Source: Candidatus Gugararchaeum adminiculabundum (GTDB lineage Archaea > Micrarchaeota > Micrarchaeia > Burarchaeales > Gugararchaeaceae). Taken from it: a stretch of DNA of 64,000 nt. Of this stretch, positions 18,505-29,356 are shown one piece after another (positions within the stretch are counted from its first letter, which is position 1; the number at the start of each line of letters is the position of its first letter). The position numbers and the translations under genes were made by a program. The stretch lies in the NCBI GenBank assembly GCA_902384795.1, contig CABMDC010000018.1:1-64000 (forward strand). The letters run 5' to 3'. Below the pieces are notes generated by a model. The model did not search any database and had not been told where the DNA came from. It saw only the letters and a program-made list of their open reading frames with translations.

Positions 18505-19197
18505 TCAGGTTCCGAACCTTCTCTGCCTTAATTCGTATTCATCAAGCGCTGCCTTGAAGTCCTCCTTCTGGAAATCAGGCCAGAGCTTGGGCGAAAATAG
18601 AAGCTCGCTGTAGGCGCTCTGCCACGGGAGGAGACCGGATAGTCTCTGCTCGCCGCTTGTCCTGATGATTAAATCAGGGTCGGGTAATTCTGAAGTGTAT
18701 AGGTATGATTTGAAGGTTTCCTCGTCAATCTCCGAAATTTTGCCTGCTTTCATGTCCGAGGCGATTTGCTTGGCAGCATCTACCAGTTCGACCCTGCCGC
18801 CATAGCCGAGCAGGATGTTCAGCTGGTGGTTGGTGTAGTCCTTGGTGCTGTTTTCCAGGTAATTGATTCCCTGCTGGACTGATTTGGGGAACATTTCCTT
18901 TTTGCCGAAGAATTTGACCCTTACCTTGTACTTGTGGTATTCGCTCCTGCCCGCAGCCTGTTTCAGCCTCTTTGCAAACAGGCCGAAAAGGTGGTTCACT
19001 TCATTGGTTTCACGGGAGAAATTCTCGGTTGAGAAACCCCAGAAAGTAATCATTTTGATGTCGAATTCCTTGCACCACTTGAGCACATCGGCAATGCGCG
19101 CGATTCCCACCTGGTAGCCCTCTTGCACGCTCTTGCTCTTGCCCTTTGCCCAGCGCCTGTTGCCGTCTGGGATTATTACCACGTGTTTTGGAAGCAT
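18505..19197 (-). CDS. uppS: cis-prenyltransferase (undecaprenyl/dolichyl diphosphate synthase)
   Basis: A 230-residue UPP synthase-family enzyme. The substrate motif IIPDGNRRWAKG lies at residues 8-19, TFWGFSTENFSR near 50, and RTSGEQRLSGLLPWQSAYSE, split here between its two conserved halves, near 185-205. It builds the long cis-isoprenoid that becomes dolichyl phosphate, the lipid carrier for archaeal N-glycosylation. Its ATG overlaps the stop of the geranylgeranyl reductase gene by one base. The neighbours supply saturation of the polyprenol and dolichol-phosphate sugar transfer, so the carrier role is well supported by context. Confidence 0.95.
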   Translation of the reverse strand: MLPKHVVIIPDGNRRWAKGKSKSVQEGYQVGIARIADVLKWCKEFDIKMITFWGFSTENFSRETNEVNHLFGLFAKRLKQAAGRSEYHKYKVRVKFFGKKEMFPKSVQQGINYLENSTKDYTNHQLNILLGYGGRVELVDAAKQIASDMKAGKISEIDEETFKSYLYTSELPDPDLIIRTSGEQRLSGLLPWQSAYSELLFSPKLWPDFQKEDFKAALDEYELRQRRFGT

Positions 19198-20348
19198 TAT
19201 ATCCCGCCTTGAGAAGCCAAATTTAGCATTCCTTGTACTATAGGTGTTAATATATTAAAAGATTTCATGTCAGCCTGCCTTAAAGTCCTGCTGGGGAAGT
19301 CCATGTCCCCGTATTTCTCTAAGAATGAATCGGCTTTTAGCATCCTCGCCATGTTAAGGAGCTGGTCGAGCCTGACGTCGCCCAGGGTGTTCAGGAGCCT
19401 TCTTGCGCCATAGTGAAGGCTTAAATCCGCCTGAAACCTCGCTCTCCAGGCGCGTTCATACTCGGTGGCTGCTGTTTCTTTGGCAATCAATTCTCCTGCG
19501 AATTTGCCGCAAACTGCCCCGAAAAGGACCCCGCCGCCAGTGCTTGCCTTTACCTGGCCCGCGGCATCGCCAACCAGCAAAATGTTCCGTTTTCCATGAA
19601 TGTTTGTAATTGCTGTTTTCTTCCTTGGTTTTAGTGGGATGAGTCCTGCCAATTTGCTTATTTCCTTGCCGCGCGCTTCGGGGTATTTTTGCTGAATGAA
19701 ACGATTGAAATAATCGCGCACAGGCAGGCCTGCGCGCACACCGAGCCCGATTTTCGTGACTTCTTCGTTCACTGGAATCGCCCAACCGAAAAATCCCGGC
19801 GCGATTTCCTGGGAAAGGTGCACGTCAACCTCGTCTTTCACTGGCAGTGAATAATTGCAGTCGGCCTGCATGCACATAACGTAATTGCGCATTTCAATGG
19901 CATCGAAATTAAACAGGCGCGCAATTTGTGAATTCGCCCCGTCTGCTCCGATCACATTTTGCGCGTGCAAATCAGAAACTGATTTCACATTGTCGCACAT
20001 TTTGATTTCCGCTCCGGCATCCTGCGCAGCCTGGGAAAAAAGAACGTCCAGCTCGGCCCGGTCAATCACCAGCGCCTTTGGCTCGCGGGAGCGCACGTGG
20101 AAGTTGTTATTTTTCCCATAGGCAGTGCAACCGTGAATTTTGTTCAGCACTGTTTTTTCATAGGGAACTCCCATTTTTTCGATTTCGCGCATTCCTGAAG
20201 CAGAGATGTGGCCGGAACATTGCACTGGCTCGCCAATTTTCGCATGCTGTTCTGAAACGAGGACGCGCAGGCCGCTTTCGGCTGCGGATTTGGCAGCCAT
20301 GGAGCCTGCAGGCCCTGCCCCCACAATATGCACGTCGTATTTTGCCAT
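19197..20348 (-). CDS. geranylgeranyl reductase family (digeranylgeranylglycerophospholipid reductase)
   Basis: A 383-residue FAD-dependent reductase. The dinucleotide-binding motif VGAGPAGSMAAKSA is at the N-terminus. The archaeal family stretch EPVQCSGHIS follows near residue 42, and the second flavin motif LLVGDAAGQVKASTGGG lies near 270. It saturates the isoprenoid chains of archaeal membrane lipids and can act on dolichol-type polyprenols. Overlap with both flanking genes and position next to the cis-prenyltransferase and dolichol-linked transferases suggest a role in making reduced dolichol, though membrane-lipid reduction is equally possible. Confidence 0.9.
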   Translation of the reverse strand: MAKYDVHIVGAGPAGSMAAKSAAESGLRVLVSEQHAKIGEPVQCSGHISASGMREIEKMGVPYEKTVLNKIHGCTAYGKNNNFHVRSREPKALVIDRAELDVLFSQAAQDAGAEIKMCDNVKSVSDLHAQNVIGADGANSQIARLFNFDAIEMRNYVMCMQADCNYSLPVKDEVDVHLSQEIAPGFFGWAIPVNEEVTKIGLGVRAGLPVRDYFNRFIQQKYPEARGKEISKLAGLIPLKPRKKTAITNIHGKRNILLVGDAAGQVKASTGGGVLFGAVCGKFAGELIAKETAATEYERAWRARFQADLSLHYGARRLLNTLGDVRLDQLLNMARMLKADSFLEKYGDMDFPSRTLRQADMKSFNILTPIVQGMLNLASQGGI

Positions 20349-21955
20349 CAGTTCGACCCGTTATTTTTCAATTTAGAGCAATCGTAAACCGCATAAATCA
20401 CTGTACCATGGGATTTCTGCTCTTTTAATTTAACACATTCGCTTTCCAGCTGCCAGTAAACTGTCGCAACCCAGAACTTGGAGCTGAGCCACGGGGGAGT
20501 GGAATCGGAAAGAAGCGGCTCATGGTAAACATAAGGGGATTCTTTTGTCGCTTCGGTTAGGTTGATTCCGCCTCCGTAGAATTTGCTCCTGACAGGGATT
20601 ACTTGGATGGATTTTGGAGTGTAGAGCTCAATGGATTCCCTGAGAACAACAATTTTTGTGTGGTTCAACTCCTGCGCGGATTTCGCCATGCCTGCAATTG
20701 CTTCGGATCGCATCTCGTCATAGCTTCTTGCGCCAATGAGCATGAATGCCGAGAATATCAAGTAGCCGAGTAGGATGGAAGCTGCCGCAGTTTTGAATTC
20801 AAGGAACTTGAGGGAAATGAGCGCGAGCGCGAGCTGGATTGGAATTAGGATTGCTAGCAGATGAAGCGCTGCCTCGTTGAAATCGAGCAAAGCAGCAATG
20901 AACAAGCCGAACAGAGGGACTCCGAAGAAAATTAATGCCTCCTTATTCCTCTTCACTGCCTGTTTCAAGTCAACGCCCTCGGTTGCGCTGGCGCAGATTA
21001 TCATCAGAGGGGGAAGCGCGATTGCAAAATACCTGAGCTGCTCACCGGTGACCGTGATTGCAAACAGACCGAATGCGACCAGCAGCCAGGCGAACATCAG
21101 TGCCAGCACCGGCTTTTCATAAATCTTCTTTGGCGAGAGGTTTTTCAGGAGAACCGCCAAAGCGAGCAGCGGGAGAAACGCAGTAAGGCGCGCGGCAATC
21201 CTCGCAGCGTCAAGCGCCTTGTAAAGCACCCTTTCCTGCAAAGAAACGGACTGCACAAACTCGCTTGCATGGGAGAAGGAATTCCCGAGGCTGTTTATTC
21301 CGGTGAGTTTGTCCAGGAAAATCCAGCAGGGGAAAAATAGGAGGAGCGCCAGAATGAACGGGGCAAACGCAATTGCCCGGTCCCTCCAGTTTCTCTCGGT
21401 TGCAAAAATAAAAACAGCTGCCGGGAAAAGAAAGATGAGCGCCGAGATTTTTGAAAGGAATGCGAGAAGCATGAAAAATGTGGAAGCCGCAAGCAGCAGT
21501 TTGGACTGTTTTTCAGTGGAATAATATTTCACCAGGAAATAATAGGAGCAAAGTGCGAACAGGGTGAGGATTCCGCCATCCACATCAAGCAATTGGCTCT
21601 GTAAAATGTGATAATTGGAAAGCGCTAGCAGAAGCGCTGCGACCAGCGAAGTCTTCTCATCAAGGAATTCGCGTGAAATCAAATAGGCAACAAAAATTGT
21701 CAGAATTCCTGCAAGCATTGGCACCATTCTCAGGTTGTTGATGCCCAGCATCCATTCGAGGGTGAATGAATAAAGCCCAAGGGGCGGGTGAACTGTGAGC
21801 GCCCCGCCCAGATTGCCTTTGAAGAGGCTGAGTGATGCATTGTACCAGACCTGCTCCTCTCCGTTCAAATCCCTGCCAACATCATTTAGCCGCAAAGCGA
21901 GCGCGGCAAGCAGTATTAGTAAAAGAAGATGCTTTGCCGAAATCTTTGTCCCCAT
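20348..21955 (-). CDS. GT39/ArnT-like membrane glycosyltransferase
   Basis: A 535-residue protein with about eleven predicted membrane helices. The first extramembrane loop near residues 25-35 carries acidic residues (GRDLNGEEQ) that match the acidic catalytic loop of the PMT/ArnT superfamily, and the loop VHPPLGLYSF fits the family HxP-type motif. The last 130 residues are soluble and probably face the outside. Such enzymes use a polyprenyl-phosphate sugar as donor. The GT2 enzyme encoded just upstream would make that donor. The acceptor, whether lipid, glycan or protein, is unknown. Confidence 0.75.
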   Translation of the reverse strand: MGTKISAKHLLLLILLAALALRLNDVGRDLNGEEQVWYNASLSLFKGNLGGALTVHPPLGLYSFTLEWMLGINNLRMVPMLAGILTIFVAYLISREFLDEKTSLVAALLLALSNYHILQSQLLDVDGGILTLFALCSYYFLVKYYSTEKQSKLLLAASTFFMLLAFLSKISALIFLFPAAVFIFATERNWRDRAIAFAPFILALLLFFPCWIFLDKLTGINSLGNSFSHASEFVQSVSLQERVLYKALDAARIAARLTAFLPLLALAVLLKNLSPKKIYEKPVLALMFAWLLVAFGLFAITVTGEQLRYFAIALPPLMIICASATEGVDLKQAVKRNKEALIFFGVPLFGLFIAALLDFNEAALHLLAILIPIQLALALISLKFLEFKTAAASILLGYLIFSAFMLIGARSYDEMRSEAIAGMAKSAQELNHTKIVVLRESIELYTPKSIQVIPVRSKFYGGGINLTEATKESPYVYHEPLLSDSTPPWLSSKFWVATVYWQLESECVKLKEQKSHGTVIYAVYDCSKLKNNGSN

Positions 21956-21959
21956 GCAA

Positions 21960-22919
21960 TCACGAGAAAATTTCCATCCAGAGCATCTGTAGCCCGAGCT
22001 TTATGGCCTTGATTTTGTTCCTTCCAATTGCTTTGGACTGGCCGACTCGCTCCCGAAAGGTAATTGGAACCTCTATTACTTTCAAATCATTCTCCAATGC
22101 CACCATAACCATGTGCGGGGAGAAATGGCTTCCCCCGACTTTCAGCTGGGGCTGGATTTTCAGGAAAGCGTCCTTTCTTATTGCGCGGTAGGTGCAGCCA
22201 ACGTCGGTAAGCCTGACTTTTCCCCAGTATCTCAACTGGATTAGTTTCGCAAGGAACTGATTTCCCCAGTTCAGGAACCAGTCAAGCTGCGAGCTTTGGT
22301 CAAGGAGTTCTTCAGTTGTCCTTGTGCCCACGACCATGTCGGCGTTTTCCATGTAGGCGATCAGTTTTTTCACATCGCTTGCAGAGAACGTCTGGTCCGC
22401 TTCGCTTAGAATCACAATGTCGCATTTGGGCTCGGACATTGCGCGCATGCACGCATAGCCATAGCCCTGTTTCTTTTCCTGCACAACGCGCGCGCCTGCT
22501 TTCTGCGCGAGCTCCGCGGTCCTGTCCCTGCTGTTGTTGTCAATTACTACGAGGTCGCTAATACCGGAGAGCTTTTTGAAATCAGCCACAGCTCCGCCAA
22601 CCGAGAGCTCGTCGTTGTATGCGGTCAACCCGATTCCGATTCTCTTGCCTTCAATGGGATCATGTCTTATTTTCCTGTGCCTGCTGCCGAAAAGCAGTGG
22701 GCGGATGAGAAGGTCGATTAAACAGAGGATGATTGCGAGCGAGAGCATGGCAACGATGAGGAGGAACAGCTGGTCGAAATACTGGGAAAGCTGCGCGAGC
22801 TGTGCTGTTTGGGAAGCCGGCACCCAATAATTCTTGTAGAGCCAGAGCTTTGCTTCCACTATCGCTAATGGAATGGCAGCCAAGCCGATCAATGCCCCGA
22901 ACATCAATGGTCGACCCAT
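21960..22919 (-). CDS. GT2 dolichyl-phosphate sugar synthase-like, N-terminal membrane anchor
   Basis: A 319-residue protein. Two hydrophobic helices (about residues 5-25 and 50-72) come first. The GT-A domain then starts at about 90 with IGIGLTAYNDELSVGGAV, followed by LVVIDNNSRDRT and IVILSEADQTFSASD (DxD-like region). The ending DVGCTYRAIRKDAF and VPITFRERVGQSK is typical of dolichyl-phosphate mannose/glucose synthases. It should transfer a sugar from a nucleotide donor to dolichyl phosphate on the cytoplasmic face, feeding the membrane transferase 4 bp downstream. The sugar identity is not visible. Confidence 0.85.
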   Translation of the reverse strand: MGRPLMFGALIGLAAIPLAIVEAKLWLYKNYWVPASQTAQLAQLSQYFDQLFLLIVAMLSLAIILCLIDLLIRPLLFGSRHRKIRHDPIEGKRIGIGLTAYNDELSVGGAVADFKKLSGISDLVVIDNNSRDRTAELAQKAGARVVQEKKQGYGYACMRAMSEPKCDIVILSEADQTFSASDVKKLIAYMENADMVVGTRTTEELLDQSSQLDWFLNWGNQFLAKLIQLRYWGKVRLTDVGCTYRAIRKDAFLKIQPQLKVGGSHFSPHMVMVALENDLKVIEVPITFRERVGQSKAIGRNKIKAIKLGLQMLWMEIFS

Positions 22920-22955: not shown

Positions 22956-24026
22956 TCACAGGCTTACTGACGAATTTTCCCCAATTATCAGCTTGTGGCC
23001 TTCGGGCCTTGTTTTCACGTTTGAGGAGATTTCGCAGTTCTCGCCAATAAGGCTTTCCACAATCCTTTTTCCGCAGTGGATGTTCGAACCGTCCATCACT
23101 ATGGAATACTCGATTTCTGTATTCTTCAATTTAATATTGTTGCCTAGGCTCGTGTAGGGACCGATGTAGGAATTGGGCCCGATGTCGCAGTTTTCTCCGA
23201 TTATCACCGGCCCCTTTATCACAGTGCCCTCGCGGATGATGCTTCCCTTGCCGATTTTCACAGCGCCTTTCAGGGAAACTCCTTTTTCAATTTCGCCCTT
23301 ATTTTCTGGCTTGAGCTCGTGCAAAATGAGCTGGTTGGCTTCCAATAGGTCATCCGCTTTTCCGGTGTCTTTCCACCAACCCTCGACTATTCCTGATTTT
23401 ACCTGGCATCCCTTTTGCACCAGATAGTCTACCGCATCGGTGATTTCCAACTCATTCCTGAAGGATGGCTTGATGGCGTTCACTGCCTCGTAGATTTTTT
23501 CCCGGAAAGCGTAGATGCCGATCATCACCAGATCGGATTTTGGGTTCTTGGGCTTTTCCACCAGCTTGATGATGTCGCCTTTTGCATCCACCTCCGCGAC
23601 ACCGAAAGCGGTCGGATTGTCGTGGTGGGTGAGCAGGATGCTCGCGTCTGCCTTGCTCGCTTCGAAATCCTTTACGAATTTTTTGATGCCGCCCTTGAGC
23701 AGGTTGTCCCCGAGATACATTACGAACGGCTCGCCCTTGAGGAATTTTTCTGAAACGATTATTGCGTGCGCAATGCCGCGCGGATAGTCCTGCTCAATGT
23801 AGGTGATTTTCACCCCTAGCTTTTTCCCGTCCCCGAAAATTTCATGGAATTGCTCCTTGTTGGGGCCGTAGACTATTCCTATGTCTGTGATTCCTGCCTC
23901 GCGCAAATCGTCTATTGCGTATTCTATCATGGGCTTGTTTGCAACAGGTATGAGCTGCTTCTGCTTCCAGTGGGTTATGGGCCTTAGCCTTGTTCCGAAC
24001 CCTCCGCCTAGTACTAATCCTTTCAT
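22956..24026 (-). CDS. glucose-1-phosphate thymidylyltransferase-like nucleotidyltransferase with C-terminal beta-helix
   Basis: A 356-residue sugar-1-phosphate nucleotidyltransferase. The intact signature is LGGGFGTRLRPIT with QKQLIPVANKPM. Metal and substrate residues include YLGDNLLKGG and GWWKDTGKADDL. A left-handed beta-helix occupies about 245-350, as in the long archaeal RmlA-like enzymes. It activates glucose-1-phosphate or a relative as dTDP- or UDP-sugar and probably feeds the 4,6-dehydratase encoded at 27047. The intact active site contrasts with the degenerate paralogous domain at 25029. Confidence 0.88.
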   Translation of the reverse strand: MKGLVLGGGFGTRLRPITHWKQKQLIPVANKPMIEYAIDDLREAGITDIGIVYGPNKEQFHEIFGDGKKLGVKITYIEQDYPRGIAHAIIVSEKFLKGEPFVMYLGDNLLKGGIKKFVKDFEASKADASILLTHHDNPTAFGVAEVDAKGDIIKLVEKPKNPKSDLVMIGIYAFREKIYEAVNAIKPSFRNELEITDAVDYLVQKGCQVKSGIVEGWWKDTGKADDLLEANQLILHELKPENKGEIEKGVSLKGAVKIGKGSIIREGTVIKGPVIIGENCDIGPNSYIGPYTSLGNNIKLKNTEIEYSIVMDGSNIHCGKRIVESLIGENCEISSNVKTRPEGHKLIIGENSSVSL

Positions 24027-24101: not shown

Positions 24102-25001
24102 TCATTTTTTCTCGTTATGCATAAGTGCGAGCCCCTGCCCGCAAGTAATCATTTTGATCCCCGCGGCCTGCTCCAGTTTCTTCACGTTCAGCGAGGAGTC
24201 ATAGGGGCGCGGTGCCGGCTGCTTCAGCTCGCTGGTTTTCCCTTTTTCCAGCAGCTTCCCGTCCAAGCCGAATTCCTTTGCAATCTGCTTTCCGAAATCA
24301 AGCCTGCTTGCCCTTTCTCCGCCGGAAGAATGGAAAATGCCGCCCAGATTTTTCTCGCAGATTTTCACCAGCGCTTCGGCAAGATTTCCCGCATAAGCTG
24401 GGCAGTTTATCTGGTCATCGACAAGCTTGGTTTTTTTCCCGGCCATTAGCTCGTCAACCAGCCAAGTGACGAAATTTTTCCTTTGCTGCCTCAATTCGGC
24501 AGGAAGAAGCCCGTAAATCACGCTGGTGCGGGCAATCGCATTTTTCGCATCGGAGGCGAGTGTTGTTTTTTCGGCTTCTAATTTGGTTTTGCCGTAAAAG
24601 CTCAGGGGGTTGGTGGCATCGGTTTCCACATACATTCCACCTTTTTTCCTGCCGTCAAAAACATAATCAGTGGAAATCATCAGCACGCGCGAGCCCGCTT
24701 TTTTCGCTGCCTTGCAGACATTCCTGGTCGCATCCACATTCAATTTTTGCGCCCATTCCTTTTCCAGTTCGCATTTGTCCACAATAGTTGCTGCTGCGGA
24801 GTGAATTGCCCAGTCGGGCGAAAAATTGCCAATCACCTGCGCGCATTCTCCCTCGTTTTCAACGTCTAATTTTGCGCATTCGCAGAAATCGAAATCAATG
24901 GGATTCCGATTGTAGCAGGCAAGCACTTGGTGTTTTTTTGAAGCCAGCCTGGCAGCATAGCTTCCTGCGAGCCCGCTTGCCCCGGTTATGAGAATTTTCA
25001 T
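24102..25001 (-). CDS. dTDP-4-dehydrorhamnose reductase-like SDR
   Basis: A 299-residue extended SDR of the RmlD type. It has ILITGASGLAGSYAA at the N-terminus, the RmlD-typical ISTDYVFDG near residue 110, YGKTKLEAE as the Tyr-Lys catalytic pair, and ARTSVIYG. It reduces a 4-keto-6-deoxy nucleotide sugar. In this operon the substrate could be the dehydratase product or the 3-deoxygenated product of the RfbH-like enzyme. No RmlC 3,5-epimerase is present in the window, so L-rhamnose as the end product is not assured. Confidence 0.85.
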   Translation of the reverse strand: MKILITGASGLAGSYAARLASKKHQVLACYNRNPIDFDFCECAKLDVENEGECAQVIGNFSPDWAIHSAAATIVDKCELEKEWAQKLNVDATRNVCKAAKKAGSRVLMISTDYVFDGRKKGGMYVETDATNPLSFYGKTKLEAEKTTLASDAKNAIARTSVIYGLLPAELRQQRKNFVTWLVDELMAGKKTKLVDDQINCPAYAGNLAEALVKICEKNLGGIFHSSGGERASRLDFGKQIAKEFGLDGKLLEKGKTSELKQPAPRPYDSSLNVKKLEQAAGIKMITCGQGLALMHNEKK

Positions 25002-25028: not shown

Positions 25029-25862
25029 CTACTGCCTATTCCCCGCAATTTTCTCAGCCTGCTTTGCATCCGCCAGGGTATGCACATTCACGAATTCGCC
25101 CTCGACTATGTGGCCCGCAAGCCTGCCTTTCTCAGCCATTTCAGGGAACACCTGGCTGAAAAGCGAATGCGCTTTTTTCACATACTCGAAAATTTCCGGC
25201 TCGGCAATTCCAATGCCAGTGGAAACCAGGTTGGTGCTCACTGACTTCGGATTCGCGTCATAGGAAACGATCCTGTTCCCGTTCATCTGCACCAGCGAGC
25301 TTTTTCTCCAGGTGAAATTCGCGCCAGCGTAAATCGCCAAAGTTGCTCCGGACAGATTGCTTTCGTGGTCTTTTTCCAGCTGGGCAAGGTCAAAATCGAA
25401 ATAGTGGTCGCACACCAGGAAAAGGAATCTTCCTCTCATTTTCTCCTTTGCAAGTGCGAGCGTGTGGCTGCTGCCCAGATGCTCCTTTTCCTCGATATAG
25501 GTGATTTTTACTCCGAGCCCTTCGCCATCCTTCAGCTTTTCAAAAATCTTGGTAATCACTTCGCTTGAGCCCACAATTGCGATTTCGAAATAGCCCGAGT
25601 CTCTGAGCTTTTGCACCATGCGCTCAACCAAAGTTTTGCCCCCTATTTTCAGCAACGGCCTGAAAACTCCTGCCTCGGGAACAAGCAGCTGCTGGGCCTT
25701 GCCGCCTGCGAGTATCACCGCCTGCTTTAATGGGGCGAGCTGCTTTCTCAGCACCTGTTCCAGGGCGCTGGAACGGGAATCGGCATCGCCCCTGGCCACC
25801 TGCGCGTCCAGAGCTGAAACTAATTTCTCGTCTATGAAAAATGAAACCCTTGTTTTTTTCAT
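25029..25862 (-). CDS. RHH DNA-binding domain fused to a degenerate sugar nucleotidyltransferase
   Basis: A 277-residue two-domain protein. Residues 1-45 read as a ribbon-helix-helix: RVSFFIDEKL strand and helix, then SRSSALEQVLRKQL as the second helix. Residues 47-277 match the sugar-phosphate nucleotidyltransferase fold: VILAGG, RPLLKIGGKTLVERM, ITYIEEKEHLGSSHTLA, STGIGIAEPEIFEY. Key positions are changed. The GxGTR signature reads GGKAQQL, and the usual W-x-D-x-G near the C-terminus reads GEFVNVHT, losing the metal aspartate. The paralogue at 22956 is intact. It heads the eight-gene minus-strand operon and faces the 25962 operon across two palindromes. A sugar-sensing transcription factor is the favoured inference; a working enzyme with an extra domain is the alternative. 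Confidence 0.8.
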   Translation of the reverse strand: MKKTRVSFFIDEKLVSALDAQVARGDADSRSSALEQVLRKQLAPLKQAVILAGGKAQQLLVPEAGVFRPLLKIGGKTLVERMVQKLRDSGYFEIAIVGSSEVITKIFEKLKDGEGLGVKITYIEEKEHLGSSHTLALAKEKMRGRFLFLVCDHYFDFDLAQLEKDHESNLSGATLAIYAGANFTWRKSSLVQMNGNRIVSYDANPKSVSTNLVSTGIGIAEPEIFEYVKKAHSLFSQVFPEMAEKGRLAGHIVEGEFVNVHTLADAKQAEKIAGNRQ

Positions 25863-25897
25863 GCAAATCCACTCGCTGCCTGCAGCGGCATTAATCG

Positions 25898-25934
25898 TAA
25901 TACTCTAGTAATAATTTGTAATACTTAAGTATTA
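25898..25934. promoter_or_regulatory. tandem palindromic operators in a divergent promoter
   Basis: A perfect 16-bp palindrome TAATACTTAAGTATTA lies at 25919-25934. An imperfect copy TAATACTCTAGTAATA, with the same left arm and one mismatch in the right arm, lies at 25898-25913. Their starts are 21 bp apart, two helical turns, the arrangement seen for cooperative RHH repressors such as MetJ and Arc. The perfect copy overlaps the TATA box (25930-25939) of the plus-strand operon, whose ATG lies at 25962. Both lie upstream of the RHH fusion gene (start 25862). Binding by that fusion is inferred. Confidence 0.65.
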
Positions 25935-25961
25935 TAAAGGTATTTGGCGCTAATTAAACGC

Positions 25962-26981
25962 ATGAAAGGCACAGGAGCTGCGCACGACTATTCCATTGGC
26001 CCGATGCAGGGGAAACGGGTGCTGATTACCGGAGGGGCAGGATTCCTGGGAAGCAACCTGGCGCACAAGCTGGTCGCCCTGGGGGCGGAGGAGATTGTGC
26101 TTTATGATGCCATGCTTCCGGAGTATGGAGCAAATCCCGAGAACTTCCGTGAAATAAAGGACAAGGTGAAAGTGGTAAAGGGCGACACGCGCGACTTTGA
26201 AACCCTGGCGAAAAATGTGAAGGGAAAGGATTTGATTTTCAACTATGCCGCCCAGGTGAGCCATGTGCGCTCCATGCGCGAGCCCTTGTTGGACATTGAA
26301 ATCAACTGCACAGGGAACATGAATGTGCTGGAGGCATGCAGAAAATTCAATGATTCCGCAAAAGTGATTTTTTCCGGGACGCGGACTCAGATCGGGGAGG
26401 CGCAATACACTCCCATTGATGAGAAACATCCGATTAATCCGGTGGATATTGTGGGCGCAAACAAGCAGGCTGCGCAATGGTATCACCAGCTCTATTACAA
26501 GGTGCATGGGATCAGAACGAGCACCATTGTGCTGAATAATACCTATGGGCCGAGGCACCAGGTGCGCAATCCGGATTATGGAATTGTAAACTGGTTTGTG
26601 AGATTGGCGATTGAGGGAAAGGAGATCGAACTTTTCGGGGATGGCTCGCAAACGCGTGATTTCAATTATGTGGATGATGTGAATGATGCGGCACTTCTTG
26701 CTGCGCAGTCTGACAAGAGCAATGGCGAAGCGTACCTGCTTGGGTCTGGGGAGGAAATCTCCATGCTGGAGGCTGCTAAAATCATAATCAAAGCTGCCGG
26801 GTCTGGCTCGTATAAATTAAAGCCGTTCCCGAAAGAGAGGGCGAAAATTGATGTGAAAAGGTTCCTAGTCAGCTATGAGAAAATAAAGAATGATATTGGC
26901 TGGTTCCCGAAAACAAATTTTGAAAAGGGAATTGCGAAGACAGTGGAATTCTATAGGCAAAGGCTGCAGCACTATAGGTAG
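25962..26981 (+). CDS. SDR-type nucleotide-sugar epimerase/dehydratase with altered active site
   Basis: A 339-residue extended SDR. The NAD site is LITGGAGFLGSN. The region where the catalytic Tyr-x-x-x-Lys belongs reads VDIVGANKQAAQ, so the lysine is kept but the tyrosine is Val. The preceding Ser/Thr strand reads IFSGTRTQIGEA. Later motifs NNTYGPRHQVRNPD and DGSQTRDFNYVDDV are well preserved. A related subfamily has Asn-Gly at this place, so the change may be a subfamily trait. ATG 25962 lies 27 nt from the TATA centre and is probably leaderless; an upstream TTG is less likely. It leads the operon with the 4,6-dehydratase and the RfbH-like enzyme. A C2 or C4 epimerase of a 3,6-dideoxysugar is possible. 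Confidence 0.75.
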   Translation: MKGTGAAHDYSIGPMQGKRVLITGGAGFLGSNLAHKLVALGAEEIVLYDAMLPEYGANPENFREIKDKVKVVKGDTRDFETLAKNVKGKDLIFNYAAQVSHVRSMREPLLDIEINCTGNMNVLEACRKFNDSAKVIFSGTRTQIGEAQYTPIDEKHPINPVDIVGANKQAAQWYHQLYYKVHGIRTSTIVLNNTYGPRHQVRNPDYGIVNWFVRLAIEGKEIELFGDGSQTRDFNYVDDVNDAALLAAQSDKSNGEAYLLGSGEEISMLEAAKIIIKAAGSGSYKLKPFPKERAKIDVKRFLVSYEKIKNDIGWFPKTNFEKGIAKTVEFYRQRLQHYR

Positions 26982-27046: not shown

Positions 27047-28015
27047 ATGAAAATTCTTGTTACTGGCGGCGCTGGCTTCATTGGCTCGAATTTCGTGCGC
27101 CACATGCTTTCAGCGCACAGGGATTTGGAAATTGTGAACCTGGATAAATTGACCTATGCCGGGAATCTGGATAATTTGGAAGGGCTGGGGGCAGGGGAGG
27201 AATCAAGGCACAAATTCATTAGGGGAGATATTTGCGACAAGAAAATAGTGGAGCAGGCAATTAAGGGATGCGAAGTGGTGGTGAATTTTGCTGCCGAAAC
27301 CCATGTGGACAGGAGCATTTCCAATGCCGAGGATTTTGTGAAAACAGATGTTTACGGGACGCTGGTGCTGCTCGAGGCGTGCAGGAAAGCCGATGCAAAA
27401 TTCGTGCAGATTTCAACGGATGAGGTTTATGGGAATGCGGAAAATGGGCCTTCAAAAGAAACCGATGAGCTGAAGCCGCGCAGCCCCTATGCCGCGTCAA
27501 AAGCAGGGGCAGACAGGCTTGCGTTTTCCTACTGGGCGACCCATGGGCTGCCGGTTGTGATTACAAGATGCACTAATAATTATGGGCCGAACCAATATCC
27601 CGAAAAATTGATTCCGCTATTTGCAATCAATGCGCTCCAGGGAAAAGAGCTTCCTGTTTATGGGACAGGCAAGAATACCCGCGACTGGATTTATGTGCTT
27701 GACCACTGCAAGGCGATTGAGCGGGTGATGCAGGAGGAAAAATGCTTCCGTGGAGAAGTGTATAACATAGGCGCGGGCAACGAGCTTTCGGTGCTGGAAA
27801 TAACTTCGGTGATCCTTAAGCAGCTGGGAAAACCTGCGAGCCTGCTCAAGCATGTGCAGGACAGGCCTGGCCATGTGGTTCGCCATGCGGTTGACAGCGG
27901 CAAAATAAGAAGTGAGCTTGGCTGGAAGCCGGAGCACCTGTTTGAGCAGAATATTGCCTCGACCATTGAATGGTACAAATCAAACAAATGGTGGTGGAGC
28001 AAACTGATCCGCTAA
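27047..28015 (+). CDS. rfbB: dTDP-glucose 4,6-dehydratase
   Basis: A 322-residue extended SDR with all hallmarks of RmlB/RfbB. It has VTGGAGFIGSNF at the N-terminus, LDKLTYAGNLDNL, the catalytic TDE triad at 124-126 in ISTDEVYG, and Tyr148/Lys152 in YAASK. TRCTNNYGPNQYPEKLIP follows. It converts an NDP-glucose to the 4-keto-6-deoxy sugar. The nucleotidyltransferase at 22956 likely supplies the substrate, and the next gene would remove the 3-hydroxyl. Whether the nucleotide is dTDP or CDP is not decided by the motifs; RmlB-like wording favours dTDP. Confidence 0.92.
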   Translation: MKILVTGGAGFIGSNFVRHMLSAHRDLEIVNLDKLTYAGNLDNLEGLGAGEESRHKFIRGDICDKKIVEQAIKGCEVVVNFAAETHVDRSISNAEDFVKTDVYGTLVLLEACRKADAKFVQISTDEVYGNAENGPSKETDELKPRSPYAASKAGADRLAFSYWATHGLPVVITRCTNNYGPNQYPEKLIPLFAINALQGKELPVYGTGKNTRDWIYVLDHCKAIERVMQEEKCFRGEVYNIGAGNELSVLEITSVILKQLGKPASLLKHVQDRPGHVVRHAVDSGKIRSELGWKPEHLFEQNIASTIEWYKSNKWWWSKLIR

Positions 28016-28027
28016 AGAGGTTTGAAA

Positions 28028-29356
28028 ATGGAAGAAAAAGAAAAACAAATACGGGAAAAAATAAAAACACTAGTAAAGGAGTTCTGGCAGGCGAAGCAAA
28101 GTGCCGGGAAATTCGTGCCAGGGAAAACACGCGTGCAATATTCTGGGAGCATGATGGACGAGCGGGAGCTCAATGAAGTGGTGGAAGCAACGCTGAACGG
28201 CTGGTTTGGGCTTGGCCCAAAGGCGCGCGCATTTGAAACCAAATTGTCCGAGTTCATTGGAGTGAATTCCTGCCTGCTAACGAATTCAGGCTCGTCCTCA
28301 AATCTTCTTGCTGTTGCGGCTCTTACTTCTCCCCAGCTTGGGGAAAAGAGGCTGAAACCGGGGGACGAGGTGATAACCGTTGCGTGCACTTTTCCCACAA
28401 CTCTTAATCCGATTCTCCAGCATGGGCTGGTGCCGGTCTTTTTGGATGTGGAACTTGGAACTTATAATCTGCTGGCTGAGAAGCTCGGAAAGGCGATTGG
28501 CGGCAAAACAAAGGCAATAATGTTTGCGCACACGCTTGGAAATCCCCATGACATGAATGAGATTATGGATTTTGCAAAGGAGCGCGGGTTATATGTGATT
28601 GAGGACAACTGCGATGCGCTCGGGTCCGAGGTGCACGGAAAAAAGACAGGGAGCTTTGGGCACTATTCGACCCTTTCGTTTTACCCCGCGCACCAGATTA
28701 CCATTGGCGAGGGGGGAGCGGTTGTGACAAACGATAGGCAGCTGGCAAAGCTTGCGGAATCGTTCAGGAACTGGGGGCGAGCCTGCTGGTGCACAGGGGA
28801 CGAGCGAAGCCCGCTGGGAGCGTGCGGCATGAGGTTCGCGTTCAAGGTGGACGGGGTCCCCTATGACCACAAGTACATGTACTCGAACATAGGGTACAAC
28901 CTGAAGCCAACGGAAATCAATGCTGCAATGGGAGTTCCGCAAATGGAAAAACTGCCCAAATTCATTGAGGCGCGGAGGAAAAACCACGCGTTCCTGCACA
29001 GCGAGCTGCAGAAATTCGAGGATAGGCTGATTCTCCATGAAACGTTTGAAGGGATTGGCGCAAAACCCTCCTGGTTTGCCTATGCCATTACTGTGCGCGA
29101 GCCTTCCGCAGGACTTACCCGCGACGGGCTGGTGAAATTCCTGGAGGCAAAGAACATTGAAACCCGGCCGCTGTTTGCAGGGAATATTCTGCACCAGCCG
29201 GCGTACCAGGGGATAAAATGCAGGGTTGCCGAGAAACTGGCGAATTCGGACAAAATTTTAAGGGACACGCTCATGGTCGGGGTTTATCCCGGGCTTGACC
29301 AGGAAAAACTCTCCTATATTGCAGACGGGATAGGGGAATTCATGGCAAAAGCCTAA
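28028..29356 (+). CDS. rfbH: RfbH/E1-type 4-keto-6-deoxyhexose 3-dehydrase (PMP and iron-sulfur)
   Basis: A 442-residue member of the DegT fold that removes the C3 hydroxyl in 3,6-dideoxysugar synthesis. The usual PLP lysine is replaced by His222 in FYPAHQITIGEGG, diagnostic of the PMP-dependent E1. Candidate [2Fe-2S] cysteines are Cys195, Cys253, Cys255 and Cys266. The spacing of 57 residues then one residue matches E1, while the last spacer is ten instead of the usual seven. ATG 28028 follows an AGAGG. E1 normally needs an E3 reductase for electrons; none is encoded in the window, so a general ferredoxin system may serve. The product would be a 4-keto-3,6-dideoxyhexose nucleotide. Confidence 0.9.
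   Translation: MEEKEKQIREKIKTLVKEFWQAKQSAGKFVPGKTRVQYSGSMMDERELNEVVEATLNGWFGLGPKARAFETKLSEFIGVNSCLLTNSGSSSNLLAVAALTSPQLGEKRLKPGDEVITVACTFPTTLNPILQHGLVPVFLDVELGTYNLLAEKLGKAIGGKTKAIMFAHTLGNPHDMNEIMDFAKERGLYVIEDNCDALGSEVHGKKTGSFGHYSTLSFYPAHQITIGEGGAVVTNDRQLAKLAESFRNWGRACWCTGDERSPLGACGMRFAFKVDGVPYDHKYMYSNIGYNLKPTEINAAMGVPQMEKLPKFIEARRKNHAFLHSELQKFEDRLILHETFEGIGAKPSWFAYAITVREPSAGLTRDGLVKFLEAKNIETRPLFAGNILHQPAYQGIKCRVAEKLANSDKILRDTLMVGVYPGLDQEKLSYIADGIGEFMAKA

Follow-up and report, generated by a model that had tools for sequence, protein, structure and literature searches.

What might a protein do that joins a ribbon-helix-helix (RHH) domain to the fold of a sugar nucleotidyltransferase (NTase), and whose gene stands back to back with a sugar operon? 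The question is raised by a gene of Candidatus Gugararchaeum adminiculabundum in the window (the whole 64,000-nucleotide stretch of DNA analysed here). As originally predicted, the gene starts at 25862, in an open reading frame of 277 aa (25029-25862, minus strand), and its parts are:

25032..25862, minus strand: RHH-NTase regulator gene encoding 277 aa, followed by its stop codon at 25029-25031
25728..25862, minus strand: RHH domain, residues 1-45 (RHH_1, NikR profile match, solved-fold match)
25032..25727, minus strand: residues 46-277, the putative effector domain, with a sugar-nucleotidyltransferase fold that lacks the GxGTR loop

Both halves of this assignment, an RHH domain in residues 1-45 and a sugar NTase fold in the remainder, were borne out. 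The Pfam family NTP_transferase (PF00483) matched residues 48-252 (E 1.6e-16, 61.1 bits, cut-off 21.2), and RHH_1 matched residues 5-42 with E 6e-4 and 20.1 bits, slightly below its curated cut-off of 20.5 bits. A profile built from 12 relatives matched the RHH chains of NikR over residues 1-46 (E 3e-4, PDB profiles) and many sugar NTases from about residue 46 on. The NCBIfam matches of the window protein were sub-threshold only, led by MurU, archaeal GlmU, AglF and RmlA, and the NikR models of that collection reached only residues 5-44 (E 0.02). Single-chain structure prediction and fold comparison supported both domains. The full-length AlphaFold2 model had a mean pLDDT of 89.5, and its residues 45-277 were superposed on RmlA (4ecm) with Z 28.4 and 2.1 Å over 228 residues, followed by the GMPPA/GMPPB complex (7d72) and by MurU (Z 26.4). 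Modelled alone, the RHH part reached pLDDT 92, with ParD and the RHH of NikR as the closest solved folds (Z 5-6.6, 1.2-1.9 Å, 41-46 residues) and non-RHH folds ranking below them at Z 3.6 or less. A Foldseek search with the 46-residue RHH gave leading matches that were mostly RHH proteins, all at E >1. Residues R5, S7, D19, R30, S31 and E35 of the RHH are invariant, and its beta strand was left unassigned in the single-chain models. The architecture resembles that of NikR, where an N-terminal RHH (fold Z ~6, with a profile match) precedes a C-terminal effector domain. NikR, however, senses nickel by an ACT-type domain, and this ACT-like nickel-binding domain is absent from the window protein, where residues 46-277 form the NTase fold. 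That fold is shared with RmlA, MurU, GMPP and the N-terminal domain of GlmU, from which the window protein differs in lacking the GxGTR loop and its arginine and in carrying the added RHH.

The searches indicate that this build is a family and not unique to the window genome. In a protein search (98 relatives) and a profile search through all 301 genomes of the phylum, at least 47 of the matches listed included the RHH, starting within the first four model positions. Profile searching for RHH and NTP_transferase fusions, which had been proposed, recovered a family spread over several phyla. The closest relatives, here group A, were found at 12 loci in a profile scan of 84,980 genomes (37-46% identity), in records that bear the names Micrarchaeota, Woesearchaeota, Aenigmatarchaeota, Parvarchaeota and Burarchaeum, with one more from an uncultured archaeon. 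In a tree of 72 NTase domains, the RHH-fused copies all fell on one side of a single branch (support 88/83), and the fusion required 1 change compared with a mean of 24 in shuffled data, a tree that fits one fusion clade. Group A formed a clade of its own on a long stem (support 100/100).

Fusion to the RHH and loss of the catalytic loop go together. With RmlA of the window as the reference for the motif counts, the window protein reads GGKAQQL at the GxGTR position and NVHT at the position of the C-terminal metal Asp, both as claimed. The GxGTR arginine was present in 2/38 RHH-fused domains vs 32/32 unfused NTases, and at the KPL lysine position 20 of the 41 fused domains had Lys and 14 had Arg, as against Lys in 32/32 unfused. 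The first metal Asp was kept in 40/41 fused domains; the second metal position was Asn (12), Ser (9) or Asp (7), and is Asn in group A. The EKP sugar-phosphate motif reads ANP in the window protein, so its pocket may have changed further. Some NTases, GlmU among them, use Asn at the second metal position. An Asn there is therefore no proof of death, and the missing GxGTR arginine is the better argument for inactivity. An NTase domain that is still an active enzyme and moonlights as a repressor, a trigger enzyme like PutA or NadR, would be in keeping with the intact fold, the invariant first metal Asp and an invariant Asn that could bind metal as in GlmU. It is nonetheless improbable, as the GxGTR loop is randomised in the RHH-fused copies but intact in all unfused paralogues, and an intact rmlA lies two genes downstream of the regulator. 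Judged by its residues, the NTase domain of the window protein has probably lost catalysis while retaining the fold and the first metal/ligand Asp, and catalytic decay appears closely tied to the acquisition of the DNA-binding domain.

The genes and promoter elements around the putative regulator are as follows:

25898..25934, either strand: operator array of four GTAWTA half-sites, in steps of 10, 11 and 10 bp
25898-25903, TAATAC; 25908-25913, GTAATA; 25919-25924, TAATAC; 25929-25934, GTATTA: the half-sites
25930..25939, either strand: TATTATAAAG, TATA-box-like both ways (TTATAAAG on the plus strand, TTTATAATA on the minus strand), overlapping the operator array
25962..26981, plus strand: divergent SDR gene (NDP-sugar epimerase/dehydratase family), first of the plus-strand operon, also open from TTG 25944
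27047..28015, plus strand: rmlB, dTDP-glucose 4,6-dehydratase (TIGR01181, 437 bits, above cut-off)
28022..29356, plus strand: RfbH-like sugar gene of the DegT/DnrJ aminotransferase family (NF011936, 581 bits, above cut-off)
24102..25001, minus strand: rmlD, next downstream of the regulator (TIGR01214, 226.6 bits, above cut-off)
22956..24026, minus strand: rmlA, downstream of rmlD, a long form whose GGFGTR is intact (TIGR01208, 455.9 bits, above cut-off)

Two palindromes 21 bp apart had been proposed at 25898-25913 (imperfect) and 25919-25934 (perfect). Their positions stand, but the element is better read as four half-sites, laid out TAATAC-n4-GTAATA-n5-TAATAC-n4-GTATTA. The perfect palindrome does overlap the TATA-like box of the divergent operon, TATTATAAAG, which is situated ~27 bp before the ATG (25962) of the SDR gene and is covered by the array; its minus-strand reading, TTTATAATA, is a TATA-like box ahead of the regulator. 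The array thus covers the divergent core promoter and, since it spans the region shared by both operons, the proposal that the putative regulator controls the two of them is well founded. The minus-strand operon continues (18505-22919) with genes for a GT2 glycosyltransferase and a PMT_2 family protein, and with flavoprotein reductase-like and cis-prenyltransferase-like genes, the last two named by eye; given this extension, the regulator may also influence lipid-linked sugar transfer.

The same array was found upstream of the gene in four other Micrarchaeota relatives, where it starts inside a TTTATAATAC-like box and often ends right at the ATG, and with relatives from at least four archaeal phyla, beside sugar-nucleotide genes. 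A half-site matrix trained solely on the five Micrarchaeota upstream regions was applied to eight loci from other phyla that had been held out, 7.3-12.8 kb in length (two near-duplicate pairs among them, giving about six independent tests). In 8/8, the best four-half-site array of the entire locus lay <=105 bp upstream of the RHH-NTase gene, and in 7/8 it lay within 44 bp. The group A motif was present in 13/13 upstream regions, with 0.04 expected. As regards the rest of the genome, which had been suggested as a place to look for the palindrome, the 37-bp array occurred once in 1.47 Mb at <=3 mismatches (reversed control, 0). At this threshold each of five whole genomes had a single copy, in every case at the RHH-NTase gene, and the reversed control matched in none of the five. 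These genome-wide counts are partly circular, since those five Micrarchaeota genomes also supplied the pattern; it is the held-out test that is independent. At <=2 mismatches, 6/301 genomes matched (the five Micrarchaeota and one 2-mismatch match), and at 0-1 mismatch no genome among the 301 did so besides the five. Short AT-rich palindromes are common, and those of the window might have arisen by chance in an AT-rich intergenic stretch with the RHH binding elsewhere; this we reject as extremely improbable in view of the held-out loci, the single array per genome and the enrichment in upstream regions. The occurrence of one array per genome means that the regulon of the window protein appears local, comprising its own operon and the divergent one. 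Half-site orientation is mixed among the relatives, while the 10-11-bp step is constant, as would be expected if each half-site took up one RHH dimer along a single helix face, by analogy with RHH structures in general. Archaeal regulators can activate from near-TATA sites, so that position alone does not fix the sign of regulation, and the protein might instead activate the divergent operon or act on it as an anti-repressor. We hold this to be unlikely, however, since both the TATA box and the sequence from there to the probable start lie under the array in the window and in most relatives, the usual place of an archaeal repressor.

The neighbours of the group A genes are mostly dTDP-sugar (rml) genes, as seen in these loci:

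L035: SDR-rmlB divergent; rmlD-rmlA downstream
L085: rmlC-like gene, rmlB, rmlD and rmlA divergent
L087: rmlC-like gene and rmlB in two pieces, divergent
L095/L096: rmlB-rmlD-rmlA-rmlC divergent
L037/L038: rmlC-like gene divergent
L089/L090: RmlA-type NTase gene downstream
L093, L094: NDP-sugar dehydrogenase or glycosyltransferase genes adjacent, instead of rmlB/D

The absence of rmlB/D neighbours at L093 and L094 implies that the signal may be something other than a sugar of the dTDP-rhamnose type. Oligomerisation domains are frequent on RHH repressors, and the NTase-like domain could accordingly be a mere dimerisation scaffold in a constitutive autorepressor that senses nothing. This seems quite unlikely, given the consistent linkage to sugar genes and the pocket-region stretches FLFxPCDHYF and NxH, which are nearly invariant in group A across phyla and among its most conserved residues, as expected of a pocket with work still to do.

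The sister group B has an operator of its own. Exact direct repeats GTATGA-n4-GTATGA were present in 14/28 group B upstream regions (0.002 expected from shuffles; the shuffle test was used because real AGTATGA...AGTATGA sites also match the reversed pattern, making that control uninformative). The group A motif was found in one group B upstream region, and the group B motif in no group A region. Group B adjoins gluconeogenesis, glycolysis or UDP-sugar genes, its neighbours including glpX-type FBPase, DUF2090 aldolase-like, GlmS-like, UDP-GlcNAc 2-epimerase, phosphohexomutase and intact NTase genes. These genomes contain further copies of the repeat (L102-L108), which lie just upstream of apparent GAPDH-PGK, GAPDH and FBPase-aldolase genes, of an apparent dehydrogenase-complex E2 gene and of an apparent mutase/NTase pair; no carbon or sugar gene of that kind was found at the L106 and L108 sites. 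The genes at L102-L108 were named by eye from translations, with the FBPase/aldolase relatives tested. It is possible that the GTATGA sites outline a central-carbon regulon. Half of the group B fusions, mainly of the MKERLTITLD type (L072-L084 and similar; f13, f9), are without the exact GTATGA repeat and may use a drifted or different operator. Three genomes (G005, G010, G065) each carry a group A and a group B RHH-NTase, each with its own operator type. At one locus (L046:5249-6616), a single open reading frame beside a group B regulator encodes a fusion of an FBPase_3 fragment with a DUF2090 aldolase-like domain. RHH residue 7 (25842-25844 in the window), a position in the strand, is an invariant Ser in group A and Thr/Ala in group B; its variation in step with GTAWTA and GTATGA operators is a hint, amounting to about one change on the tree.

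Computation shows how the domains are put together, that the catalytic loop is gone, that the operator is conserved and unique, and in which genetic context the gene lies. From these results we infer that the protein binds DNA, represses transcription and senses a ligand, and what the ligand might be. In this model the window protein is probably a local repressor, with a dead NTase domain as its sensor of a nucleotide sugar or sugar phosphate. The N-terminal RHH domains would dimerise, and the dimers would occupy one GTAWTA half-site after another, ~10.5 bp apart along a single face of the DNA. The bound sites would lie across the promoter that separates the regulator-rmlD-rmlA operon from the SDR-rmlB-aminotransferase operon, and an occupied array would block the TATA region and repress both, providing autoregulation along with control of the pathway. 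The ligand of the C-terminal NTase-derived domain is most likely a dTDP-sugar or a sugar phosphate from the pathway, and its binding would alter the affinity for DNA. A dTDP-sugar acting as feedback co-repressor is at best a tentative first guess. For the family as a whole, the chances seem about evenly balanced that RHH-NTases are a DPANN-wide regulator family using a dead nucleotidyltransferase as a sensor of sugar-nucleotide/sugar-phosphate state, with the GTAWTA branch governing local dTDP-sugar operons and the GTATGA branch governing gluconeogenesis, glycolysis and UDP-sugar genes.

PutA, NadR and BirA are enzyme-linked regulators in which, as in the window protein, a metabolic enzyme fold is joined to a DNA-binding domain; in those three, unlike here, the enzyme is still active, and to our knowledge none of them has an NTP_transferase-fold sensor with an RHH. 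Regulators derived from enzymes are a known kind, as are RHH repressors that carry effector domains, and what appears to be new is the combination of RHH and nucleotidyltransferase fold; in agreement with the expectation that no such regulator had been described, none was found in the open-access literature searched. The closest parallel for the sensor is GMPPA, a non-catalytic GDP-mannose pyrophosphorylase paralogue that, though inactive, binds GDP-mannose and exerts feedback on GMPPB (PMC11228364). It too is a dead NTase serving as a nucleotide-sugar sensor with feedback control, although GMPPA inhibits its sister enzyme and control by the window protein would be transcriptional.

Fusion, catalytic-loop loss and operator array all hold in the window and are conserved in the relatives, and together they point to an undescribed family of sugar-sensing gene switches. 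We know of very little on metabolic regulation in DPANN archaea; here sequence alone yielded a protein family together with its operators and probable targets, and a single protein and a single 40-bp probe suffice for an in vitro test. The family would be a further case of an enzyme turned gene switch and, with two branches that would have different target sets, the RHH-NTases may be a general sugar-status regulator of DPANN archaea.
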